Notes under the pieces: generated by a model
The model's database searches: none
What the model was told of the DNA's origin: nothing
The model's input: the letters and a program-made list of their open reading frames with translations, nothing else
NCBI GenBank assembly: GCA_001512965.1
Contig: LFRW01000029.1
Location: 1 to 45,618, forward strand
Reading direction: 5' to 3'
Length of the DNA: 45,618 nt
Source of the DNA: Methanomicrobia archaeon DTU008
GTDB lineage: Archaea > Thermoplasmatota > Thermoplasmata > Methanomassiliicoccales > Methanomassiliicoccaceae
Translations under genes and position numbers: made by a program
In this document: in pieces, positions 5,612-5,758 of the stretch
How positions within the stretch are numbered: the first letter of the stretch is position 1
How the letters are laid out: the number at the start of each line of letters is the position of its first letter

Positions 5612-5620
5612 CTTTAATTA
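5612..5620 (+). promoter_or_regulatory. TATA box of the tRNA-Leu gene
   Basis: CTTTAATTA lies 28-36 bases upstream of the mature tRNA 5' end, the spacing expected for an archaeal box A serving a tRNA with a short leader. The surrounding sequence is GC-rich, so the box stands out. Confidence 0.6.
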
Positions 5621-5647: not shown

Positions 5648-5758
5648 GCGAGGGTAGCCAAGCCAGGTCAATGATGAGACGACTCATCGGCCAAAGGCGA
5701 CAGACTCAAGATCTGTTCCTGAAGAGGTTCGCCGGTTCGAATCCGGCCCCTCGCACCA
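5648..5758 (+). tRNA. tRNA-Leu(CAA) with a D-loop intron and encoded CCA
   Basis: The acceptor stem GCGAGGG (5648-5654) pairs with CCCTCGC (5748-5754), followed by the discriminator A and an encoded CCA. The anticodon stem ACAGA/TCTGT encloses the loop CTCAAGA with anticodon CAA at 5707-5709, which reads UUG. A long variable arm (about 5717-5729) and the T arm (GCCGG-TTCGAAT-CCGGC) are both clear. The D arm is broken by 23 extra bases (5672-5694); removing them gives a standard archaeal class II leucine tRNA. The anticodon loop, the usual site of archaeal tRNA introns, has none. The gene is expected to be transcribed alone, ending in the T-tract at 5793-5798. Confidence 0.95.
5672..5694 (+). 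other. tRNA intron in the D-loop, bulge-helix-bulge fold
   Basis: A standard splicing motif can be folded. The intron stem is GATGAG (5673-5678) with CTCATC (5683-5688) over an ACGA loop. The central 4-bp helix is GGTC (5666-5669) with GGCC (5689-5692), including one G-U pair. The two 3-base bulges are AAT (5670-5672) and AAA (5693-5695). The outer helix is GCC (5662-5664) with GGC (5696-5698), with one unpaired A at 5665. Cutting after the second base of each bulge, as the archaeal splicing endonuclease does, removes exactly 5672-5694 and leaves GGTCAA joined to AGGC, a normal D-loop. The fold is seen in the sequence; splicing is inferred. Confidence 0.85.

Follow-up and report, generated by a model that had tools for sequence, protein, structure and literature searches.

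A 23-nucleotide D-loop intron at position 21/22 of tRNA-Leu(CAA) in a Methanomassiliicoccales archaeon

Results

The interrupted tRNA-Leu(CAA) gene

The window, the whole 45,618-nucleotide stretch of DNA analysed, is contig 19 of the draft assembly of Methanomicrobia archaeon DTU008 (1.76 Mb, 59 contigs, 99% complete), a member of the Methanomassiliicoccales. It carries an interrupted tRNA-Leu(CAA) gene (Table 1), which reads GCGAGGG TA GCCAAGCCAGGTCAA, then a 23-base insert, then AGGC G ACAGA CTCAAGA TCTGT, followed by the variable arm, the T-arm, the acceptor strand and CCA. Cloverleaf counting (G18 G19 U20 C20a A20b A21 / A22) places the insertion at 21/22. The usual site at 37/38 is empty, as the preliminary description had stated, and the anticodon loop CTCAAGA is intact; the intron thus lies outside 37/38. 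Deletion of 5672-5694 yields a sequence that ARAGORN calls tRNA-Leu(caa) and that intronless orthologues match, in agreement with the claim that removal of these bases gives a canonical leucine tRNA. Run on the unspliced gene, ARAGORN finds no tRNA, or a false tRNA-Glu when introns are allowed. No tRNA is called in the window by ARAGORN, or by Rfam at the gathering score, because the insert blinds both programs to the gene; a whole-genome search recovers it only as a partial sub-threshold match (22 bits, model positions 9-63). The T/A-rich box TTTAATTA upstream, conserved in orthologues, is read as a putative TATA box.

Table 1. Features of the tRNA-Leu(CAA) locus (window coordinates) and other non-canonical tRNA introns of the genome
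Feature	Position	Strand	Observation
tRNA-Leu(CAA) gene, interrupted, CCA end encoded	5648..5758	+	ARAGORN call on spliced sequence; similar genes in relatives
Exon 1, tRNA positions 1-21	5648..5671	+	exact match to intronless orthologues at query 1-24
D-loop intron, 23 nt, at 21/22	5672..5694	+	missing from orthologues in several genera of the order
Exon 2, tRNA positions 22-76, anticodon CAA	5695..5758	+	
TATA-like box TTTAATTA	5613..5620	+	∼28-35 nt upstream; T/A-rich box similarly placed at orthologues
BHB central helix, exon strand GGTC	5666..5669	+	pairs with 5689-5692; paired in all sequences
BHB central helix, intron strand GGCC	5689..5692	+	
5' bulge AAT	5670..5672	+	predicted cut 5671/5672
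3' bulge AAA	5693..5695	+	predicted cut 5694/5695; A5665 unpaired opposite
Intron hairpin GATGAG-ACGA-CTCATC	5673..5688	+	all four scored pairs show compensatory changes
Outer helix GCC	5662..5664	+	partner GGC 5696-5698
tRNA-Thr(CGT), 30-nt D-loop intron at 20/21	G000:C29:8119-8223 (L092:57-161)		
tRNA-Arg(TCT), two introns, 37/38 and T-loop 59/60	G000:C2:68542-68669 (L146:93-220)		

Fold of the exon-intron junctions

Minimum-free-energy and centroid folds of 5648-5758 agree on an outer GCC/GGC helix, a central GGTC/GGCC helix, AAT and AAA as the two bulges, and, within the intron, a hairpin of 6 bp (5673-5678/5683-5688, loop ACGA), reproducing the fold first proposed. The fold energy corresponds to z = -3.7 and was as low in 0 of 200 shuffles; when only the 23 intron bases were shuffled, a helix plus hairpin arose in 298 of 1,000,000 sequences. 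Cutting after the second base of both bulges removes exactly 5672-5694, so that the predicted cuts coincide with the intron borders, as had been claimed. The arm displays the 4-bp helix between two 3-nt bulges at the exon-intron borders that marks a bulge-helix-bulge (BHB), plus one extra unpaired base: A5665 lies opposite the AAA bulge (minimum fold, isolated arm) and creates a 1x3 internal loop on the exon side. The BHB described as complete is therefore confirmed in its helix, both bulges and hairpin, but is not quite complete opposite the 3' bulge. An extra base at the position of A5665 is present in all 23 distinct homologues (as A, T or C), and in the sequences with T this base could pair with the first A of the 3' bulge.

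Distribution and covariation in relatives

Orthologues were sought in 61 genomes; families are labelled f1 to f6 below, and one genus within f3 is labelled g6. Similar tRNA-Leu(CAA) genes were found in 61 of 61, at full length in the nearest ones. Homologous introns (23 distinct sequences from relatives, 22-28 nt) occupy the same position, and every one keeps the complement of GGTC, and with it the 4-bp central helix, as well as a hairpin of at least 4 bp. All f1 genomes with a completely recovered gene have the intron, as do f4, f6 and genus g6. The intron is absent from the other f3 genera examined, from f5 and from the single f2 gene read out, and the f2 genomes contain no match to the intron pattern. 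The intron is thus no isolated oddity and is conserved in one family and in parts of three more. Named records that share gene and intron belong mostly to the Methanomassiliicoccales, among them RumEn M1 and several Methanomassiliicoccus sp.

The exons are nearly identical to those of intronless orthologues. In an alignment of 12 distinct rows, with hairpin loops trimmed by hand, all 132 pair cells are standard, and double-sided changes occur in 4 of 4 scored hairpin pairs (shuffles reaching these values, 0 of 500); sliding the partners out of register lowers pairing to 13-51%. Comparison of the tRNA-Leu(CAA) genes of related genomes, proposed at the outset as a check, has thus yielded orthologues with and without the intron and compensatory changes between them. 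Exon 2 begins with U instead of A in most f6 sequences; this U can form a pair with A13 of the D-stem, consistent with the assignment of position 22 to the exon.

Two other genes were encountered. In Euryarchaeota archaeon SpSt-1159 (DSAX01000111.1, L138) the D-loop of Leu(CAA) is interrupted at this position by an intron whose hairpin, CCGT/ACGG, is entirely different, and a Leu(CAA)-like gene in a Thermoplasmatota genome of another class (L187, G261:C105) has its D-loop intron at that position too, together with an apparent intron at 37/38. Matches to the intron pattern in G152 (= L188) and in the named record L137 were set aside as chance, the first part of the pattern lying upstream of an intronless gene.

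The tRNA gene set of the genome

Besides the interrupted CAA gene, the leucine tRNA genes detected in the genome have the anticodons TAA, GAG and CAG. Rfam, ARAGORN and a T-arm pattern search revealed no second tRNA-Leu(CAA) in the assembly, which is 99% complete; a second copy could lie on unassembled DNA, the assembly being a draft in 59 contigs with an incomplete tRNA set. Genome scans found no tRNA genes for Cys, Lys(TTT), Leu(TAG) or Pyl, which may be unassembled, or interrupted in such a way that scans miss them. Matches to the T-arm pattern outside known tRNAs were rejected as hidden tRNA genes, as they fall in coding-like sequence.

Canonical introns at 37/38 also occur in this genome. 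A weak match at G000:C2:68974 was not a further disrupted tRNA and belongs to tRNA-Trp(CCA) (G000:C2 ∼68860-69016; L146:411-567), a gene missed by Rfam whose long 37/38 intron resembles the C/D guide RNAs sR3 and sR40. A tRNA-Trp intron that resembles a C/D guide RNA is known in archaea. The ARAGORN 'Trp' call at G000:C23:3027-3123 (L091) was likewise rejected: its anticodon stem-loop reads CCG, and the gene is a tRNA-Arg(CCG) with a 37/38 intron.

Other non-canonical introns in the same genome

Two further tRNA genes are interrupted away from the canonical site (Table 1). The D-loop intron of tRNA-Thr(CGT) has a regular BHB, with an AGCG/CGCT helix, bulges GTC and AAG, and the D-stem immediately outside. 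Families f1, f3, f4, f5 and f6 have homologous introns of 16-31 nt, the shortest, at 16 nt, in f6; the f2 genes read out lack the intron. The T-loop intron of tRNA-Arg(TCT) forms a TTCG/CGAA helix with bulges AAA and ATT, and removal of both introns restores the tRNA. Of the genes read out, those of f1, f4 and f6 also have this T-loop intron, as do several f3 genera, but the T-loop of genus g6 is intact. The Leu, Thr and Arg introns thus each have a separate presence pattern.

Splicing enzymes of the host

The single EndA of the genome is encoded by a 363-codon open frame and has two PF01974 domains in tandem, the architecture of the alpha'2 type. Its best match is the M. kandleri EndA chain, and it aligns to the A. 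fulgidus alpha'2 EndA over residues 62-344 (E 2e-31), including aligned Tyr, His and Lys residues that we take to be the catalytic triad. Against the PDB chain 3p1y, presumably A. fulgidus EndA with the crenarchaeal specificity loop (∼10 residues) added, the host protein shows, in its catalytic domain, a 10-residue gap ahead of the LSLIE motif. An insertion before LSLIE, the mark of a broad-specificity loop, was found in 0 of 46 EndAs of the order. Nor do these enzymes have the three-unit chain of ∼390 residues of the epsilon2 (ARMAN) type, being 351-363 residues long with two domains; the ARMAN-2 EndA chain aligns over the C-terminal domain only. A single RtcB gene is present.

Discussion

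Nature and processing of the intron

The insert is a genuine non-canonical archaeal tRNA intron, with splicing itself predicted. The proposal that a 23-base D-loop intron splits tRNA-Leu(CAA) is borne out by orthologues with and without it, by compensatory changes, by the lack of a second Leu(CAA) in the assembly and by the presence of EndA and RtcB. With a probability of about 0.93, the locus encodes a functional Methanomassiliicoccales tRNA-Leu(CAA) whose non-canonical 21/22 intron is cut by an alpha'2-type EndA and whose exons are joined by RtcB; the sequence, the fold, the compensatory changes, the intron-minus orthologues and the EndA and RtcB genes are observed, and transcription, cutting and joining are predicted. 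The suggestion that the intron is near the smallest possible size does not hold: 23 nt is ordinary beside the published range of 11 to 129 nt for archaeal introns (PMC4090602) and beside the 16-nt Thr D-loop intron of f6.

The precursor would fold into a BHB to which exon 1 contributes GGTC-AA and exon 2 A-GGC. A homodimeric alpha'2-type EndA would cut at the two predicted sites, 5671/5672 and 5694/5695, and RtcB would ligate the exons. EndA would read the BHB and not the tRNA body, so that BHB introns off the anticodon loop would be removable without a broad-specificity loop. The archaeal splicing enzyme recognises the BHB whether or not the mature domain of the tRNA is present (PMC8707768), and a misplaced but regular BHB would accordingly need no special enzyme. 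Such recognition would explain the Thr and Arg introns directly, whereas the Leu intron requires tolerance of one extra base. Since alpha'2 enzymes are reported to be restricted to the canonical BHB (PMC12397907), A5665, which makes the Leu motif slightly relaxed, counts against the alpha'2 explanation.

Were the 23 bases instead a retained extension of the D-arm in an unusual mature tRNA, the hairpin might form an additional stacked arm. Conservation, however, extends beyond the hairpin to the exon-intron central helix and the bulges needed for cutting; sister genera have the same tRNA without the insert, two other tRNA genes of the genome carry BHB inserts elsewhere, and keeping the insert would split G18-G19 from the D-stem, all of which makes retention highly improbable. 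Less probable still is a disrupted pseudogene, with a different tRNA reading leucine UUG codons, such as Leu(UAA) through wobble. The genome does hold a Leu(TAA) gene, but an insertion that one family and parts of three more have kept, with compensatory changes, within exons almost identical to those of intronless orthologues, is not the decay expected of a pseudogene.

A further alternative concerns the history of the intron rather than its function. The Leu introns of f1, f4, f6, g6 and the distant Thermoplasmatota genome may be independent insertions at a hot spot and not one inherited intron, a tentative reading to which we give somewhat less than even odds. On the EndA tree f1, f3, f4 and f6 group together, with weakly supported key nodes, and g6 nests inside f3, whose other genera examined are without the intron. 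Hairpin sequences differ strongly, the genome of another class combines an intron at the same site with an apparent one at 37/38, and the exon sequence GGTCAA/AGGC already provides half of a BHB. Against this, a single gain with several losses explains the distribution equally well, and the deep EndA branches are weak (0.11 at one key node).

Relation to known tRNA introns

Like canonical 37/38 archaeal introns, the Leu(CAA) intron has a BHB and the EndA and RtcB pathway, and it differs from them in its position in the tRNA. Its closest counterparts are the non-canonical introns of Thermoproteales and other Crenarchaeota (20/21, 22/23, 25/26, 59/60 and others), which are also short, carry the BHB at their borders and lie in the D- or T-loop. 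Crenarchaeota, however, have an (alpha-beta)2 enzyme with the crenarchaeal loop, whereas the host is a Thermoplasmatota methanogen with a fused alpha'2-type enzyme. In Euryarchaeota, with mostly alpha4 or alpha2 enzymes, intron-containing tRNA genes are described as having one BHB intron only, at the canonical position (PMC4090602). Methanopyrus kandleri and Methanothermobacter thermautotrophicus are listed as euryarchaea with multiple-intron tRNAs (PMC4033280); these methanogens belong to other lineages than the host, and the M. kandleri enzyme is (alpha-beta)2. Korarchaeum cryptofilum shares the alpha2-type endonuclease and non-canonical introns, and has been called the only archaeon that combines the two (PMC4033280); its enzyme reportedly carries a specific loop, unlike the Methanomassiliicoccales enzymes compared.

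Because reviews assign the introns of Euryarchaeota to 37/38 and give Korarchaeum as the sole alpha2-type archaeon with non-canonical ones, the host lineage stands as an exception. The literature found contains nothing on such introns in Methanomassiliicoccales, and the literature consulted agrees with the initial statement that frequent D-loop introns are not known from methanogens. tRNAscan-SE 2.0 detected 673 non-canonical introns across 217 archaeal genomes (PMC8450103), so some introns of this order may already sit unremarked in a database. The element is of a known kind, in a lineage that is new so far as the literature found shows.

Significance

Methanomassiliicoccales outside f2 seem rather more apt than not to possess a standing set of non-canonical introns (Leu-CAA at 21/22, Thr-CGT at 20/21, Arg-UCU at 59/60 next to one at 37/38) removed by a loop-less alpha'2 enzyme, with one motif slightly relaxed. 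If so, the published tie between non-canonical introns and broad-specificity endonucleases would be broken, and intron position would be decoupled from endonuclease class. The case separates a non-canonical position from a non-canonical splicing motif, two things usually confused, and makes it possible to test directly whether an alpha'2 endonuclease of narrow specificity is enough for introns at any place in a tRNA. Since standard gene finders overlook such genes, the tRNA sets of this methanogen order can seem incomplete. Close genera with and without each intron should make gain and loss traceable.
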